From: Terriglobia bacterium
GTDB lineage: Bacteria; Acidobacteriota; Terriglobia; Bryobacterales; Bryobacteraceae
NCBI GenBank assembly: GCA_021325235.1
Contig: JAJPHN010000029.1
Coordinates: 248,001-312,000 of the forward strand
DNA length: 64,000 bases
Direction: 5' to 3'
Below, piece after piece: positions 8,924-15,569 of this stretch. Below the pieces are notes generated by a model. It did no database searches, was not told the DNA's origin, and saw only the letters and a program-made list of their open reading frames with translations. Position 1 is the stretch's first letter. Each line of letters starts with the position of its first letter. The position numbers and the translations under genes are program-made.

Positions 8924-9907
8924 GTGCCCTGTGGCCGTCCGTCTCGAATCCGTCTCGTTTTGCCGTTGATTCTTTGTTGCGTTGTCTCTGCGGCAGCCGA
9001 TCAAAATAAGCGCATCGTCCGCGTCAGCGGGACGGTGGAAGCCGTCCGCTCGGTCACAGTGCAGGTGCCCTTTATCCAGGGCCAGGGCGGCAACGTGACG
9101 CTCGCCAAACTCGTCCAGAACGGCGTTACTGTCAAGCCGGGTGACCTCCTGGCCGAGTTCGACCGCACCGATCAGCTGAAACTTGCCCGCGAAGCAGAAG
9201 CCAAATACGGCGACCTTTCGCATCAGGTCGAGCAGAAGATCGCCGAGCAGGCCAGCAATCGTGAAAAGCGCGCTGCCGATCTCGAACAGGCAAAGGCCGA
9301 TCTGAATAAGGCGGAGATCGAGTTACGCAAAGGACCCGTTCTCAGCGATATCGACCAGCAGAAGAACCAGATCAAGCTCGAAGACGCACGCCGCCATGTC
9401 GCCAGCCTGGAGCGCTCGAATCGTCTCCACGATCAGGCCGAAGCGGCCGAACTGCGCATACTCGAGTTGCAGCGGGATCGTCAGAAATATGCCGTGGAGC
9501 GCCTCGAAAACAATGCCAGCCGCCTTTCTGTGCGCGCTCCCATCGGCGGTATGGTGGCGCTCCAGAATGTCTGGCGCAACAATTCGATGGGACATGCGCA
9601 GGAAGGCGATCAGCTGTGGCCCGGCAGTCCGCTGCTTCGTCTTTTCGATCCGGCTGCCATGCAACTCGATGTCGCCATTGATGAACCGGATGGTGCGGCT
9701 CTCGTGCCCGGCACAACGGCCACCGTTCACCTCGATGCCTATCCGAATCTGACCTTCAAAGCACGTTTTGATTCGGCCAGTCCGGTCGCTTCGAGTTCCC
9801 TCGGCAGCCCTGTGAAGACGTTCGCCGCACGCTTTTTGCTCGAGGGCAGCGACCCGCGTCTGCTGCCTGATCTTACGGCTGCTGTGGACATCGAGCTGCC
9901 AAAATGA
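8924..9907 (+). CDS. HlyD-type periplasmic adaptor (first of three)
   Basis: 327 aa membrane-fusion protein. Signal peptide or anchor at residues 8-25, half-lipoyl motif (VQNGVTVKPGDLLAEFD, ~62-78), a long alpha-helical hairpin (~80-200, rich in Ala, Glu, Gln), second half-lipoyl (LSVRAPIGGMVAL, ~203-215) and a beta-barrel domain. Adaptors of this type join an inner membrane transporter to a TolC channel. GTG start; its stop overlaps the ATG of the next adaptor by 4 bp (ATGA), so translation is probably coupled. First gene of the operon 8924-15569. Confidence 0.88.
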   Translation: MPCGRPSRIRLVLPLILCCVVSAAADQNKRIVRVSGTVEAVRSVTVQVPFIQGQGGNVTLAKLVQNGVTVKPGDLLAEFDRTDQLKLAREAEAKYGDLSHQVEQKIAEQASNREKRAADLEQAKADLNKAEIELRKGPVLSDIDQQKNQIKLEDARRHVASLERSNRLHDQAEAAELRILELQRDRQKYAVERLENNASRLSVRAPIGGMVALQNVWRNNSMGHAQEGDQLWPGSPLLRLFDPAAMQLDVAIDEPDGAALVPGTTATVHLDAYPNLTFKARFDSASPVASSSLGSPVKTFAARFLLEGSDPRLLPDLTAAVDIELPK

Positions 9908-11148
9908 AAATCCGCCGCGGCCTGAAACTCGCAACTCGTGTGCTGGTGGCGCTCCTTGTGATCGCCGGTTCCGTCTGGGCCGTCCGCCGCTGGCGTCAGT
10001 CCTCGAATCCGGTTGATGCCCCCACAGCTGCCGCCCGCCAGGGCGATTTCCTCGTTACGGTCCGCTGCCGGGGCGCTCTGGCCGCTCGCCGCTCCGTGCA
10101 GATGACCGCTCCGCTCGATGTTCCCGATCTGCAGATCGTATGGCTCGCACCGCCGGGCTCACGCGTCAAGCCGGGACAGGTCGTCATTCGCTTCGATCCC
10201 AGTAAATCGCAGCAGGATCTGAAGGAGAAACAAAGCGCACTCGATCAGGCGCAGGCTACGCTCGATCAGGCCGTCGCGCAAGCCCGCATTACCGCTGATC
10301 AGGACAAACTCGACCTTTCAACCGCCGTTTACAACAAGCAGAAGGCCGAGCTCGAAGCCTCCAAGCAGGCCATTGTCAGCGCCATGCAGGGGCAGGAAAG
10401 CGCCATTGATCTGAAGATCGCCGAAGAAAAGGTCAAGGTTCAGCAGGCCACCAACGAGCTGCACCGTAAGTCGGACGAGGCAAAAATCGCCTCCGCTCGC
10501 CGCCTGCGCGATGCCGCTAAAGCCGAGGTCGACCTGATCAAGTATCGCCTCACTGTCATGGATCTGAAGAGTCCGCTCGATGGCGTGATCAACTACGAAT
10601 CGAATCGTTCCCAGGGCTGGATGAACGCTCAGCCGTTCAAAGTCGGCGATCACACCGTCGGCGGCACCGTAATCGCAGAAATTCCCGATCTCTCCACGCT
10701 CGAGATGGAAAGCAAAGTCGAGGAGATCGATCGCAGTCGCATCCAGATCGGTGACGATGTGCTGGTCCGTGTCGATTCGTTTCCGGAGAAGGTTGTTCAC
10801 GCCAGGCTCAGCCGCATTTCGCCGTTGACCGAGCAGAGCTTCGACGAGTGGCCAGTCGACCGCACGTTCCGGGCTTACGCTCTGCTTCAGAACCCTGATC
10901 CGAACATGCGCCCCGGCATGAACGCGGGTGCCGACATCGTTCAGAGCAGGATCGCGAGTGTCGTCAGCATTCCGGCAAAAGCACTTTTTACTCGCAACGG
11001 CAAACCCGCCGTCTACGTAAAAGAGAAGGAGCAGTTCAATCCACGCCAGGTCACCGTGATCGCTCGGAATCCGGACGAAGTTGCTGTGTCAGGTATTGGC
11101 GCCGGCACGCTCGTCTCGCTCACCGATCTAGCGGAGCGCAAACCATGA
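9904..11148 (+). CDS. HlyD-type periplasmic adaptor (second of three)
   Basis: 414 aa. One N-terminal membrane anchor (VLVALLVIAGSVWAV, ~13-27), half-lipoyl segment APPGSRVKPGQVVIRFD (~81-97), a coiled-coil hairpin (~100-205) and LKSPLDGVINYES (~220-232), then beta-barrel and membrane-proximal domains (~235-410). The barrel region SKVEEIDRSRIQIGDDVLV is typical of MacA-like adaptors. It probably bridges the permease at 12599 and the outer membrane channel. It ends in AERKP, and this coding end is the apparent source of the 41-bp tandem repeat that follows. Confidence 0.9.
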   Translation: MKIRRGLKLATRVLVALLVIAGSVWAVRRWRQSSNPVDAPTAAARQGDFLVTVRCRGALAARRSVQMTAPLDVPDLQIVWLAPPGSRVKPGQVVIRFDPSKSQQDLKEKQSALDQAQATLDQAVAQARITADQDKLDLSTAVYNKQKAELEASKQAIVSAMQGQESAIDLKIAEEKVKVQQATNELHRKSDEAKIASARRLRDAAKAEVDLIKYRLTVMDLKSPLDGVINYESNRSQGWMNAQPFKVGDHTVGGTVIAEIPDLSTLEMESKVEEIDRSRIQIGDDVLVRVDSFPEKVVHARLSRISPLTEQSFDEWPVDRTFRAYALLQNPDPNMRPGMNAGADIVQSRIASVVSIPAKALFTRNGKPAVYVKEKEQFNPRQVTVIARNPDEVAVSGIGAGTLVSLTDLAERKP

Positions 11149-11189
11149 GCCACGTGACTGGCTCTCAACCGGAGGCCCGGAAACCATGA
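11145..11189 (+). CDS. Mini-ORF 1, possible translational relay peptide
   Basis: 14 codons, MSHVTGSQPEARKP. Its ATG overlaps the TGA of the second adaptor and its own TGA overlaps the ATG of mini-ORF 2. A GGAG lies 9 bp upstream. It may be translated only to carry ribosomes through the junction; a functional peptide is not implied. Confidence 0.35.
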   Translation: MSHVTGSQPEARKP

Positions 11190-11230
11190 GACGCGCCAGC
11201 GGCTCTCAACCGGAAGCACGGAAACCATGA
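11186..11230 (+). CDS. Mini-ORF 2, possible translational relay peptide
   Basis: 14 codons, MRRASGSQPEARKP, sharing its last nine residues with mini-ORF 1. Its TGA overlaps the ATG (11227) of the third adaptor. GGAG sits 11 bp upstream. Both frame and stop/start overlaps are preserved despite substitutions between the copies, which hints at selection or at a recent duplication. Confidence 0.35.
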   Translation: MRRASGSQPEARKP

Positions 11231-12591
11231 GCCAGCTCATCACGCCTGTGCCTGCTCAGCCCTCCGAACCGCGGCCGCCACTGAACAATCACCGTGTACG
11301 CCGCGTCTGGCGCAAACGTCTGTTCGCGCTTGTTTCGATCTGCGCCATAGTGGCGGCAGTGCTCTTCATTGGTATTCGCGTTTACCGCACCATTCAGCCC
11401 GGTGCCGAGAATGCCGTTCCCACCGCCAAAGTACAACGCGGCGACGTGAATCTGACCATCACCGCCAACGGCGAACTACGTGGACAGAATCCGCAGATCC
11501 TCGCGGCGCCTATGACAGGCGGCGCCGAACTGCACATCACCACCCTGCTGAAAGCCGGTACGCCCGTCAAAGAAGGCCAGGTCGTGGTGGCCTTCGACAC
11601 TTCCGAGCAGGAATACAAACTCAAGGAGGCGGAGGCCGATCTCGCCGAAGCCGACCAGCATATCCTGCAGGCCAGGGCGCAGCAGGAGGCGCAGGAAGAA
11701 GAGGATCGTTACGCACTCGAAAAAGCTCAGACGGATGTAAAGCTTGCCGAGCTCGATATGCGCAAGAATCCGCTCCTGCCGCAAATCAGCGCGCGTCAGA
11801 ACGAGCTGGCGCTCGCGGCCGCACGCGATCACCTTGCACAACTGCAACAGAACCTCAAAAATCGCGCTGCGACCGGCACCGCGGGAGTTGCCATCCAGCA
11901 GGCCGGTAAGGCCAAAGCCGAAGCACAGGCGCTCACCGCGCGCCAGAACATCGAGGCCATGACGCTGAAAGCCAACCGTGATGGCTACGTCTCCATCGAT
12001 CAGAACCAGGGCGAAGGCATTGTCTTTTGGGGCATGTCGCTTCCTCCGTATCAGGTGGGCGATTCCGTCCGCCCCGGAATGGCGGTTGCCGAAATTCCCG
12101 ATCTCAAGTACTGGGAAATCGAAGCCAATATCGGCGAGCTCGATCGCGGTCATATTGCGATTGGCGACGTGGTCGACGTGCTGATCATCGCTGTTCCTGA
12201 CCAGAAATTCACGGGCCATGTCAAAGACGTCGGCGGCACCACCGGCCCTCCCTGGAATCGGCGCTTCGTCTGCAAACTGGGGCTCGATCGTACTTCACCC
12301 GAACTGCGGCCCGGCATGACCGCTCGCCTCACGATCACCACCGACCGTCTGCAGAACGTCCTCTGGATTCCGTCGCAAGCGCTGTTTGAAACCGGCGGCC
12401 GCAGCTTCGTCTACATCAAATCCGGCAAGAGCTTTAGTCCGAAGGACGTCAAATTGGTACGCCGCAACGAGGCTCGCGTCGTCGTCACAGGTCTGCATGA
12501 AGGCGATATCGTTGCGCTTGCCAACCCCGCCGACGTGGTCAAAAAGGCAAGCCGGCGGCAGACAAGCGCCATCCAGAACCTTCCCAGATAA
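11227..12591 (+). CDS. HlyD-type periplasmic adaptor (third of three)
   Basis: 454 aa. Cytoplasmic N-terminus with basic stretch, membrane anchor (LFALVSICAIVAAVLFIGI, ~37-55), half-lipoyl (LLKAGTPVKEGQVVVAFD, ~108-125), long coiled coil (~130-240, repeated Ala/Glu/Gln), TLKANRDGYVSID (~246-258), then beta-barrel (NIGELDRGHIAIGDVVDV) and a C-terminal domain. The same overall design as the second adaptor, so the two may be old paralogs, but the sequences differ widely. Stop is 7 bp before the permease ATG. Three adaptors for one permease is unusual: they may form a mixed hexamer or serve different partners. Confidence 0.9.
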   Translation: MSQLITPVPAQPSEPRPPLNNHRVRRVWRKRLFALVSICAIVAAVLFIGIRVYRTIQPGAENAVPTAKVQRGDVNLTITANGELRGQNPQILAAPMTGGAELHITTLLKAGTPVKEGQVVVAFDTSEQEYKLKEAEADLAEADQHILQARAQQEAQEEEDRYALEKAQTDVKLAELDMRKNPLLPQISARQNELALAAARDHLAQLQQNLKNRAATGTAGVAIQQAGKAKAEAQALTARQNIEAMTLKANRDGYVSIDQNQGEGIVFWGMSLPPYQVGDSVRPGMAVAEIPDLKYWEIEANIGELDRGHIAIGDVVDVLIIAVPDQKFTGHVKDVGGTTGPPWNRRFVCKLGLDRTSPELRPGMTARLTITTDRLQNVLWIPSQALFETGGRSFVYIKSGKSFSPKDVKLVRRNEARVVVTGLHEGDIVALANPADVVKKASRRQTSAIQNLPR

Positions 12592-12598
12592 TCCGCAC

Positions 12599-13843
12599 AT
12601 GAACCTGGCCCGTTACCTCTCCGACCTCGTTCTGGCGGCCCAAAATCTATGGAGCCAGAAGACACGGACAATCCTCACCGCGCTCGGCATCATCTTCGGC
12701 GTCGGAGCGGTCATCGGCATGCTCGCTATCGGCGCCGGCGCGCGGGAAGAGTCGATGCGCTTCATTGAGCAGCTGGGCGTGCGCAATCTTCTGGTGGAAT
12801 CGCATCCCGCCGCCAGCGAGCAGGAGCTACAGCAGCGCCGACGTTCGTCGCCGGGCCTCACCGAACGCGATGTTCGCATCCTCCAATCGAATGTGGATGA
12901 GATCGAGTTGATCTCCGCTCGGCGCAGCCTGCATCCGATTCGCGTTTTTCCCAAGCCGCCTGATAACATGCCGGAGCTCTACGGCGTTCGGCCCTCTTAC
13001 GCCGCCATTCACAATTGGAAGCTCGCCGAAGGGCGCGCGTTCACCGAACAGGAAGATCGCGCCAGCGCAGCCGTTGCCGTCCTGGGCGAGGGAGCCAAGA
13101 TCGCGGTCTTCGGCTACGGTCCGGCGCTCGGGAAATTCGTGAAAGTGAACGACAGCTGGCTGAAGGTGATCGGCGTTCTCGCGCAGCAGGTCGCGTCTTC
13201 CTCCGGCGCCCAGACGCAGGATGCGAATCAGGTGATCTACATCCCGCTGAACACCTTCCAGTACCGCTTCTTCGATGCCGGGTACGCCTTCAAAGATGAC
13301 CTGGACGGCGTCGACATTCGCCTCAAGCCAGCCGCCGATAGCACAGTGGCGGCCCGCGTCGTCGGTGCCGTGCTGAATTCCACGCATCATAACGTCAACG
13401 ACTTCAGCATCACCATTCCCGCCGAACTGCTTGCGGAGCAGCGCCGCTCGCAGGCCATCTTCACCTACGTGATGGTCGCCATTGCGGCTATTTCGCTGTT
13501 GGTCGGTGGAATCGGCATCATGAACATCGTGCTCGCCACCGTGCTGGAGCGCACGCGCGAAATCGGTATACGGCGCGCGGCCGGCGCACGCCGCTCCGAT
13601 ATCGTTCGCCAGTTCCTAATTGAGTCCGTTCTCATCTCCATGGGCGGGGGATTGGTCGGTATCGTCTTCGGCTACTTCCTTGCCTGGCTGATTGCCGCCA
13701 CGGCTGAATGGAAAACCATTGTCTCGCCCGCTTCGCTGCTGATCGCGTTTGGGGTCTCCGTCACTGTTGGTATCGCTTTCGGCATCTACCCGGCGCGCAA
13801 AGCTTCGCGCGTCGATCCCATTGAGGCCCTCCGCTATGAATAG
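12599..13843 (+). CDS. MacB-type ABC transporter permease without an ATPase domain
   Basis: 414 aa. ATG at 12599 chosen because it follows the adaptor stop by 7 bp and gives the family N-terminus (RYLSDLVLAAQNLWSQKTRT). TM1 at about 24-45, a large periplasmic MacB core domain (~50-270), then FtsX-type TM2-TM4 (~290-405) with the signature GGIGIMNIVLATVLERTREI. It ends in the typical PARKASRVDPIEALRYE motif. Full MacB proteins carry an N-terminal ATPase of about 230 residues; that part is absent and no ATPase gene occurs in this operon. It presumably pairs with a LolD/MacB-like ATPase encoded elsewhere. Confidence 0.9.
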   Translation: MNLARYLSDLVLAAQNLWSQKTRTILTALGIIFGVGAVIGMLAIGAGAREESMRFIEQLGVRNLLVESHPAASEQELQQRRRSSPGLTERDVRILQSNVDEIELISARRSLHPIRVFPKPPDNMPELYGVRPSYAAIHNWKLAEGRAFTEQEDRASAAVAVLGEGAKIAVFGYGPALGKFVKVNDSWLKVIGVLAQQVASSSGAQTQDANQVIYIPLNTFQYRFFDAGYAFKDDLDGVDIRLKPAADSTVAARVVGAVLNSTHHNVNDFSITIPAELLAEQRRSQAIFTYVMVAIAAISLLVGGIGIMNIVLATVLERTREIGIRRAAGARRSDIVRQFLIESVLISMGGGLVGIVFGYFLAWLIAATAEWKTIVSPASLLIAFGVSVTVGIAFGIYPARKASRVDPIEALRYE

Positions 13844-15569
13844 CCCGCTGCGCCGCATCGCCGGCGTAATTCTGCTCTTTTCCACATCTCTTTTCGCCGC
13901 CAATCCGCTCACCGATTACGTCGATTGGCGCTATCATCCGCCCCACATGCAGGTCCGCGAAATCCAGGGCCTGCAGGAACGCATCCGGGACGGCAAACTG
14001 CATCTTCATCTGCATGACTTTCTCGAGCTCGTGCTCAAAAACTCAACCGGCATCCAGATCTCTCGTCTCGATGTCTACACCGCCGCCAACAGCATCATCA
14101 GCAATAAAGCGCCCTACGACCCGTTGCTCCAGGCCGGCTTCAGTGCGCAGCGCAGCGTCTCGCCTGTTTCCTTTTTTGGTTTTGGAACTTCGGGAACGAG
14201 TACCGGCTCCACTTCTGCCACCGGAACTAGTTCGAACGCGCAGCCTGGGCAAGCGAGTGGTATCGGGACCAGCCTGACCGGACAGATCATTCTGCCCCAG
14301 ACGATCAGCAGCCTTTCTCAAAACACATACATCAATTATTCTCAGCTCTTGCCCAGCGGGCAGACCATCACCGGCAATTTCACCGTCTATCGCAGCTCGG
14401 GCGACGAATATCCATACCCGGCACTTTTCGGCTCCTTGAGTATTGGCGTTACGCAGCATCTTTTACAGGGCCGCACCAACATTCAGGCTCGCTACCCGTT
14501 GCTTGTAGCACGTTCCCAGTTGCTCATCACCTCCGAGCAGACTGCTGCCTCGGTTGCCGACATCGTGACTCAAGCCGCGCGGCAGTACTGGAATGCAGTC
14601 GAGTTGCGCGACAACATCCGAGTCCAGGAGCAGAACGTCAATCTCGCTCGTAAGTCCTACGACCGCGACAAGCAGGCCCTGGACCTCGGTGCGCTCGCTC
14701 GTCTGGACATCTTTCAATCCGAAACACAGGTCGCCGAGCGCAATCGCGATCTCATCGCCGCGCGCTATCAATACAAAATCGCGCTCGACGCTATGCGCCA
14801 ATTGATCGGCGCAGACCTCACGCCAGCCCTGCGCGAGACGGAGATCGTGCTCGAAGACGATCCCGCCGAGCTTCCTCCGCGCGAGTCCATTCTGCCCTTC
14901 GAGCAGGCTCTGAAAAAGGCCATGAATGTGCGTCCGGAACTCCTGGCAACTCAGCAATCCATCGCGAACGACAACCTGAACGCCCGAATTGCCCGCGACC
15001 AGCTCAATCCGCAGCTCGATCTTACCCTGCAGGGCGGCGCTACCGGTCCCGCCTATCCCGCACTCACCGCGAGCGGCACGCCGGTTTCGGGCGGTTTACC
15101 CGGCATTGGCCCGACACTCGACCAGGTGCTCGCCTTCAAATACCCGAGCTACGGCTTCACGCTTGCGCTCAATTTCCCACTGCGCAACAGCACCGCTAAA
15201 GCTGGGCTCTCCAACGCTCTTGTCAGCCGCGTTAAAGACGAATACACGCGCCGTCAGACGCAGCAGACAATCATCAATGACGTTCGCCAGGCCATCAACA
15301 ACATCGAGCTCGCCGATGCGTCCATTGAAGCCGCTGTCCGGGCCCGAGATCTCGCGCGCAAAAATGTCGCCGCCGAGCAGCAGAAATACGAACTCGGCAC
15401 GATCACCGCCTTCGAAGTGCTCGACTCGCAAACGCGCCTGGCCAGTTCGGAAAGCGCTCTGCTCGCGGCCTATGTGACCTATCAGCAGGCCTACATCGAT
15501 TATCAGCGCGCCACCTGGTCTCTTCTCGACGGCTTCGGTATCGTCGTCGAGACACCTGTCGTGCGTTAA
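13836..15569 (+). CDS. TolC-family outer membrane efflux protein
   Basis: 577 aa. ATG at 13836 overlaps the permease stop by 8 bp and gives a clean signal peptide (LRRIAGVILLFSTSLFAA). Two OEP-type repeats with long alpha-helices (about 210-370 and 395-560); AAEQQKYELGTITAFEVLDS near 515-534 is the TolC helix hallmark. A Ser/Thr/Gly-rich insert around residues 118-150 lies in the N-terminal third. It forms the outer membrane exit duct for the adaptor/permease system. Last gene of the operon; its TAA overlaps the stop of the convergent CNB-DUF1003 gene by 4 bp. Confidence 0.92.
   Translation: MNSPLRRIAGVILLFSTSLFAANPLTDYVDWRYHPPHMQVREIQGLQERIRDGKLHLHLHDFLELVLKNSTGIQISRLDVYTAANSIISNKAPYDPLLQAGFSAQRSVSPVSFFGFGTSGTSTGSTSATGTSSNAQPGQASGIGTSLTGQIILPQTISSLSQNTYINYSQLLPSGQTITGNFTVYRSSGDEYPYPALFGSLSIGVTQHLLQGRTNIQARYPLLVARSQLLITSEQTAASVADIVTQAARQYWNAVELRDNIRVQEQNVNLARKSYDRDKQALDLGALARLDIFQSETQVAERNRDLIAARYQYKIALDAMRQLIGADLTPALRETEIVLEDDPAELPPRESILPFEQALKKAMNVRPELLATQQSIANDNLNARIARDQLNPQLDLTLQGGATGPAYPALTASGTPVSGGLPGIGPTLDQVLAFKYPSYGFTLALNFPLRNSTAKAGLSNALVSRVKDEYTRRQTQQTIINDVRQAINNIELADASIEAAVRARDLARKNVAAEQQKYELGTITAFEVLDSQTRLASSESALLAAYVTYQQAYIDYQRATWSLLDGFGIVVETPVVR

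Follow-up and report, generated by a model that had tools for sequence, protein, structure and literature searches.

A 64,000-nucleotide stretch of a Terriglobia bacterium genome (family Bryobacteraceae; GenBank assembly GCA_021325235.1, contig JAJPHN010000029.1, positions 248,001 to 312,000 of the forward strand; hereafter the window) contains, between two HlyD-type adaptor genes called here adaptor 2 and adaptor 3, a 41-bp repeat that is read as a chain of very short open reading frames (ORFs). Where did this repeat come from, and why is it kept at a stop/start junction? We conclude that the 82-bp insert made up of its two units, W1 and W2, very probably represents an apparently mobile element of about 40 bp, dispersed and in part palindromic, that is present here in two tandem copies; the element resembles the mycobacterial interspersed repetitive units (MIRU) and is kept at coupled junctions since coupling is spared.

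The sequence AAACCATGAG starts at positions 11140, 11181 and 11222, and recounting gave spacings of 41 and 41 bp, exactly as an earlier note on this DNA had it. The ATGA overlaps lie at 11145–11148, 11186–11189 and 11227–11230. Each is both a stop and a start, and together they chain two 14-codon mini-ORFs between adaptor 2 and adaptor 3, again as described earlier. Adaptor 2 (9904..11148; all features of the junction are on the forward strand), a Pfam HlyD_D23/HlyD_3 membrane-fusion protein ORF, terminates with TGA at 11146–11148, inside the first ATGA. Mini-ORF 1, or unit W1 (11145..11189), encodes MSHVTGSQPEARKP followed by a stop, with the next ATG 41 bp on; mini-ORF 2, or W2 (11186..11230), encodes MRRASGSQPEARKP followed by a stop, with the ATG of adaptor 3 another 41 bp on. 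Adaptor 3 (11227..12591), also an HlyD_D23 membrane-fusion protein (30.7 bits against a Pfam cut-off of 30), starts in the last ATGA, and its MSQL start is common to the homologues at L013 and L014. Tandem Repeats Finder reports the junction with a period of 41, 2.3 copies, 81% matches and a score of 134, the top score in the window; the best of the 17 other rows scores 41. The general order of a unit is ATG, hairpin H1, a linker of 2–4 nt, AA, hairpin H2 (CCGG-loop-CCGG) and AAACC, usually adjoining an RTG (R, purine).

Empty sites and dispersal of the unit

The junction was compared in close relatives, a check that the earlier note had proposed. Fifteen other genomes with an adaptor 3 homologue (L013–L027; L019 was read by eye) were used, and 14 loci of lower identity, L028–L041, were left out. 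An in-frame start overlaps the adaptor 2 stop by 4 nt in 15/15 of them (ATGA in 11, GTGA in 4), with no mini-ORF. The relatives thus show zero units rather than a varying number, and in the window the chain keeps the 4-nt overlap.

The earlier note had also suggested an origin of the unit in the end of adaptor 2. In that case the 3′ end of the gene would have been duplicated locally in tandem, and copies elsewhere would reflect convergence on a good ribosome-binding site. Adaptor 2 does end in ERKP, and 12/13 bases agree between the gene end, CGCAAACCATGAG, and the unit end, CGGAAACCATGAG. However, the adaptor 2 genes of the two closest relatives end in EAPKR and EQVNR and have no such likeness to the unit end, and the core of the unit, often with its hairpins, recurs at unrelated genes as well as in other genomes and phage contigs. 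In the window genome, G000, a 46-bp stretch ending in ATGAGC (C23:29782–29827), intergenic and upstream of an unrelated ORF, is 89% identical to the junction at E 2.6e-10; the junction repeat is therefore more than chance. With as many as 3 mismatches allowed, a degenerate 26-mer detected only W1, W2 and the C23 copy in G000, and a control pattern detected none. The 20-mer YAACCGGAGGCCCGGAAACC occurs in one contig only (PLRJ01000061, Bryobacterales bacterium bog_377, same genus) among a collection of 84,980 species, which may omit the window's own genome. It is therefore not a common ribosome-binding site, and this rarity rules out plain convergence on such a site. Local tandem duplication is largely refuted, and we consider it very improbable. 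Thus, of the earlier interpretation, the stop/start-chained mini-ORFs that keep the −4 overlap of relatives stand, and the origin from the adaptor 2 end falls.

Genome G010, a species of the window's genus (Acidobacteriota) with a contig matching PLRJ01000061, has two occurrences of the 19-bp core AACCGGAGGCCCGGAAACC, at a distance of 39 bp, within the gene for a penicillin-binding protein (pbpC). A 19-mer search of 17 genomes of the genus with 2 mismatches gave four matches in G000, two in G010, one in G005 and one for the control. With 1 mismatch in 396 genomes of the phylum, two matches were found in G000 and one in G231, with seven for the reversed control; the G231 match was rejected as chance. 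We also used a covariance model built from four copies (R1) and a second model built from 14 (R2). Matches of copies used to build a model are in-sample, including those of W1 to R1 (11147–11189, 66.3 bits) and of W2 to R2 (11189–11230, 47.1 bits). At E ≤ 1, R1 matched G000 five times, G010 eleven times and four others of the 17 genus genomes weakly, once each. At E ≤ 0.01, R2 matched 29 of 257 genomes of the order: G010 (16), G000 (3), G012 (2), G007 (1), G477 (1) and 24 others, the best matches of which range from 1.6e-5 to 0.01. Across 297 genomes of the phylum the best R2 match outside G000 has E 4.3e-4, and 19/296 match at E ≤ 0.01; with this background, E < 1e-5 was taken as clean. Out-of-sample matches to R2 are C5, C130, those in G012, G007 and G477, L065 and L069c.

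Members of the family come from four genomes of the genus (G000, G010, G012 and G007), from G477, which belongs to another genus of the same family, and from four IMG/VR contigs, L065, L066, L069 (three copies) and L086. Major head proteins are encoded by L065, L066 and L069 according to PHROG; two L086 proteins tested had no PHROG match. The 34 units counted below include some weak ones, kept on grounds of genome or hairpin: C37:187441 of G000 (R1 E 0.04) and, in G010, C14 (2.3e-5), C213 (2.1e-4) and C253 (2.1e-3), these three above 1e-5 with R2. A second C177 unit at an assembly gap (R2 E 1.2e-4) was excluded from the counts, and R2 matches above 1e-5 in other genera (e.g. G638, G640) were not counted as members. 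GGCTCTNAACCGGAGGC, present without the rest of the unit in 11 IMG/VR contigs (L070–L080), was set aside as chance, as were L081 and L082. L067, L068, L085 and L047, with the core within 0 to 2 mismatches but no H1 and, by eye, no following start codon, were likewise excluded. Rfam at E ≤ 1 matched nothing in L001, L002 and L042. Among the open-access titles and abstracts listed on Acidobacteria repeats, MIRU-like elements and Bryobacter/Solibacter repeat families, none describes the unit.

Empty sites were found for other copies as well. L069 and its IMG/VR relative L188 are identical at 73/78 aligned upstream bases; L069 holds exactly 41 bp (ATGATGAGCG...AAACC) directly before GTGA, and L188 lacks them. 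The site is bordered by ATGA to its left and by GTGA to its right, and any exact duplication is at most 3 nt. No unit is present in 23 other relatives of the L069 junction gene from IMG/VR; of these, only L188 and L191 were scored with a 4-nt overlap, and in most of the others a gap separates the stop from the start. The unit at the L066 junction is absent from L130 and L132, where a plain ATGA is present; L131 has no overlap there and L133 ends short of the junction. A search with the L086 gene matched only itself. Finally, G010 has an ORF resembling a DDE transposase (22.4 bits, just below the Pfam cut-off) with 13 extra in-frame codons, made up of 39 bp of unit sequence in the opposite orientation; its G007 relative, 55% identical, is without this insert.

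Reading frames and hairpins

At six loci (the window, G010:C177, G477:C265, L066, L069 and L086) the left ATG overlaps the stop codon of the preceding ORF, and the right RTG is the start of the following one. The left overlap is TGATG at L086 and ATGA at the five other chained loci. On the right, ATGA is present at C177, G477, L066 and L086, and GTGA at L069a. The genes joined in this way have unrelated functions: SnoaL and a NAD-binding protein at C177, ParB-like and DUF488 proteins at G477:C265, and a neck and a head protein at L066. Genes on both sides fall into known families at C177, G477, C253 and L066. The seven wholly readable units of the six loci are all 38 or 41 bp long and all open. 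They encode MSHVTGSQPEARKP, MRRASGSQPEARKP, MKRSLFNRQERKP, MIRKANFQPEGRKP, MRRAAALKPEARKP, (M)MSAANLQPEARKP and MSAANHQPEGRKP.

Could functional small peptides with the ending PEARKP be the products of the mini-ORFs? The final residues are QPEARKP, KPEARKP or QPEGRKP at 5/6 chained loci, and the two W1/W2 differences inside H2 are synonymous. However, the N-terminal half varies freely, C177 has NRQERKP, and the C-terminal likeness can come from the DNA core alone. Moreover, other genes read this core in different frames (TPTGGPET, NRRTGN), on which ground a conserved peptide was rejected. A peptide function is extremely improbable, and the peptides are presumably by-products.

In W1, hairpin H1 spans 11147..11164 (GAGCCA-CGTGAC-TGGCTC) and H2 spans 11169..11180 (CCGG-AGGC-CCGG). 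A Shine-Dalgarno (SD)-like GGAGG at 11171–11175 lies within H2, and ATG 11186 is 10 nt further on. The H1 of W2 is imperfect; its SD-like GGAAG (11212..11216) is 5′ of the adaptor 3 start, 10 nt ahead of the ATG. Throughout the family the H1 stem varies in sequence and is often 5–6 bp long, and the H2 loop is often SD-like. A perfect H1 stem of at least 5 bp is present in 24/34 units (19/26 loci), a count in which tandem neighbours share stems. Nine different stem sequences occur, e.g. GAGCCA/TGGCTC, AGCCGC/GCGGCT, GTTTGC/GCAAAC and ATTCGC/GCGAAT. In 1000 letter shuffles of the H1 regions, perfect stems averaged 1.0, with a maximum of 6/34. RNA folding of eight copies placed H2 in the minimum-energy structure of 8/8 (shortened in W2) and an H1 hairpin in 6/8. 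As judged from sequence, then, dispersal, insertion relative to empty sites, preservation of overlaps and frames, and hairpins in most copies are properties of the unit.

As a separate observation, the H1 loop is GAA, GCA, GGA or GCCA closed by GC pairs in 19/24 perfect-stem units (e.g. L122, L121, L124 and L163). The DNA mini-hairpin d(GCGAAGC) is very stable. The H1 loops recall it, a likeness that hints at a single-stranded DNA stage.

Several other copies also read through in frame, as at C130. A length of 39 bp is seen in the spacing of the two pbpC units, in the transposase-like insert and in a G012 unit at a pth start. The last (C77, L164) is in reverse orientation at the likely pth start codon, with MVSPLPVGDCSAI before MPDEAL. 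CATG is palindromic, so either orientation of the unit leaves an ATG. In a G010 array of period 38, located away from a stop/start junction, two units carry TAG in the frame that is open at chained loci.

Movement of the unit and its effect on coupling

No terminal inverted repeat (TIR) was seen on the unit by itself. In G010, two pairs of units (C105, L115:4918–5102; C63, L116:6045–6230; period 40) are located inside a larger repeat with 36-bp inverted arms, 81–83% complementary and 113–114 nt apart, and the C105 and C63 loci share 97% identity across 215 bp. This larger repeat is a carrier of units that resembles a miniature inverted-repeat transposable element (MITE).

What moves the unit? 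One candidate is a system like that of repetitive extragenic palindromic (REP) sequences, in which units would be spread by an IS200/IS605-like tyrosine transposase, either a REP-associated one (RAYT) or a TIR-flanked acidobacterial one (TIRYT). The hairpins and the lack of a clear target duplication agree with this, as do PF01797 genes in 12/17 genomes of the genus and a G010 Y1 gene followed by CCCGGAAACC repeats. According to the cited part of PMC3733652, an acidobacterial group of Y1 transposases is flanked by TIRs instead of REPs, and in one Koribacter case these TIRs form a repeated family. Against such a system, no GTAG or CGTC tag ends any of the 34 units by eye (some hold GGTAGACC inside H2), and 0/5 PF01797 genes in G000 and G010 have a unit within 1.5 kb, the nearest being 1.55 kb away beyond another ORF; linkage to a RAYT is not supported on the latter ground. 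A REP-like system as a whole appears unlikely, and a TIRYT-type transposase is a possible mover. The Y1-transposase-like gene at L115:2622–3401 of G010 is followed by three CCGGAAACC repeats (CCCGGAAACCCCCCGGAAACCCCCGGAAACCCC) with 9–10 bp in common with the unit end.

A more specific proposal is made tentatively, and we hold it to be possible though rather doubtful: the unit would be a distinct class of mobile DNA, only some 40 bp long, that enters as single-stranded hairpin DNA immediately 5′ of RTG starts, is translationally silent in overlapping operons through its own start, SD and stop, and moves between Acidobacteriota and phages. On the complementary strand the unit reads CAY (Y, pyrimidine), then GGTTT-hairpin-TTGGA-hairpin-CAT. 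As part of the same tentative proposal, this layout may be compared to IS200/IS605 elements with a CAY target.

How could a mobile unit settle at a coupled junction? Placed directly 5′ of an RTGA overlap, it supplies a new ATGA, a stop-free ORF and an SD-like purine run, and the old start stays a stop/start overlap. The ATGA of the unit now ends the upstream gene and opens an ORF of 13–14 codons, which carries an SD and ends in the old ATGA or GTGA of the downstream gene. A ribosome finishing adaptor 2 would restart on mini-ORF 1, melt H2, terminate and reinitiate on mini-ORF 2, before a last restart at adaptor 3. Termination-reinitiation is established at overlapping genes (PMC6728339), and at the chained overlaps we infer it from there. 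Units at junctions would be kept because coupling stays unbroken.

Alternatively, the insert could be a dedicated regulator, with the number of mini-ORFs or an H2 over the SD setting the amount of adaptor 3 per adaptor 2 and kept by selection. An SD-holding H2 is predicted in the RNA of W1 and weakened in W2, and overlapping gene pairs commonly have an SD within the first of the two ORFs (PMC6728339). Against this, 0/15 relatives have the unit at the window junction, where it is therefore not conserved, and units occupy functionally unrelated junctions (SnoaL/NAD-binding, ParB/DUF488, phage neck/head). A dedicated regulator is thus quite improbable; the likely role of the unit is neutral persistence by sparing coupling.

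Several observations weigh against our interpretation of the insert as two copies of a mobile element kept at coupled junctions. No PHROG family matched either junction gene at L069 or at L086. Only 2/7 units at the six chained junctions (W1 and G477) have a perfect H1 stem of at least 5 bp, and the folding energies of the eight copies only modestly beat dinucleotide shuffles (z +0.5 to −3.2). A seventh stop/start junction, G010:C253 (L175; MarR to isochorismatase, TAATG; the weak R2 match at E 2.1e-3), is not a chain: its 39-bp unit is in frame with the downstream gene and forms a 13-residue N-terminal extension, MLAQQAPTGRHKT, of the isochorismatase-domain protein, with no separate mini-ORF. 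The low H1 count at chained units and the C253 junction slightly lowered our confidence. Copies are also found away from starts: intergenic (C23), in genes (pbpC, transposase) and in the MITE-like repeat. In the window, the last bases of adaptor 2 at 11137–11144, CGCAAACC, resemble the unit's own end, CGGAAACC, and this AAACC to the left of W1 is not present at the 5 other chained loci. No transposase or transposition event was found for the units, which could instead have spread by recombination or template switching. We nevertheless favour the mobile element, presumably spread by active transposition.

Pairs of filled and empty sites make the neutrality of interposed mini-ORFs for coupling directly testable, and the recurring hairpins are a handle for finding the enzyme that moves the units. 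For annotators, 13–14 codon ORFs at ATGA junctions may be copies of the element, not peptides.

The junction itself lies in an apparent operon (8924–15569) of three HlyD-type adaptors and a MacB/FtsX permease (Pfam), the latter encoded directly after adaptor 3, then one more gene. We take the product of this last gene, judging by its sequence, to be an outer-membrane-factor-like protein.

Comparison with known systems

The closest parallel is provided by MIRU, reportedly described by Supply et al. in 1997. A MIRU carries a −4 coupled ORF within a repeat inserted at start codons (cited part of PMC12548453), and units of 77 and 53 bp are present at senX3-regX3, where several can occupy one operon junction (cited part of PMC4213456). 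Like them, our unit is short, dispersed, apparently mobile, located at start codons and present in multiple copies at an operon junction. Insertion at start codons is seen from the empty junctions of 15/15 relatives and of L188, L130 and L132, and MIRU-type −4 stop/start chaining from ATGA at 11145, 11186 and 11227 and at the other chained loci. MIRU are limited to M. leprae and the tuberculosis complex in the account cited from PMC4213456, whereas the unit occurs in soil Acidobacteriota (including a Bryobacterales genome) and IMG/VR contigs. Chained units are 38–41 bp, against 53–77 bp for MIRU at senX3-regX3; most units have two hairpins, and some are found in frame inside genes. Compared by description, the unit behaves as a MIRU does, yet it is not classed with them, being set apart by lineage, size and, in most copies, palindromic build. 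The MIRU strategy, a mobile repeat hidden in a stop/start overlap by a chained mini-ORF, is thereby suggested to have arisen outside mycobacteria, in a shorter form and also in phage contigs.

The chain also recalls the bicistronic design (BCD), in which the SD for the second cistron lies within the first, and the stop codon of the first overlaps the start codon of the second. The first cistron of a BCD is a short leader peptide ahead of the target gene (cited part of PMC5995908). In contrast, the unit occurs naturally and in dispersed copies, the window has two of them in a chain, and this chain is fed by an upstream gene instead of a leader of its own. Rickettsia palindromic elements (RPE) share with it a palindrome placed in frame within genes, as in pbpC, in the transposase-like ORF with its empty relative and in the read-through at C130. 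RPEs are about 150 bp long and found in Rickettsia, unlike the 38–41 bp chained units of Acidobacteriota, and no start/stop coupler role is given for them in the cited part of PMC10969869. REP/RAYT repeats are, in the cited part of PMC3733652, likewise short, palindromic and dispersed, some of them arrayed and some in genes; the unit differs in having no GTAG/CGTC end tag, in not standing beside any examined Y1 gene and in the placement of several copies exactly at start codons. Finally, ordinary ATGA overlaps have the same 4-nt stop/start overlap with an SD in the upstream ORF (cited part of PMC6728339), whereas at the window junction a 41-bp ORF unit is interposed twice.

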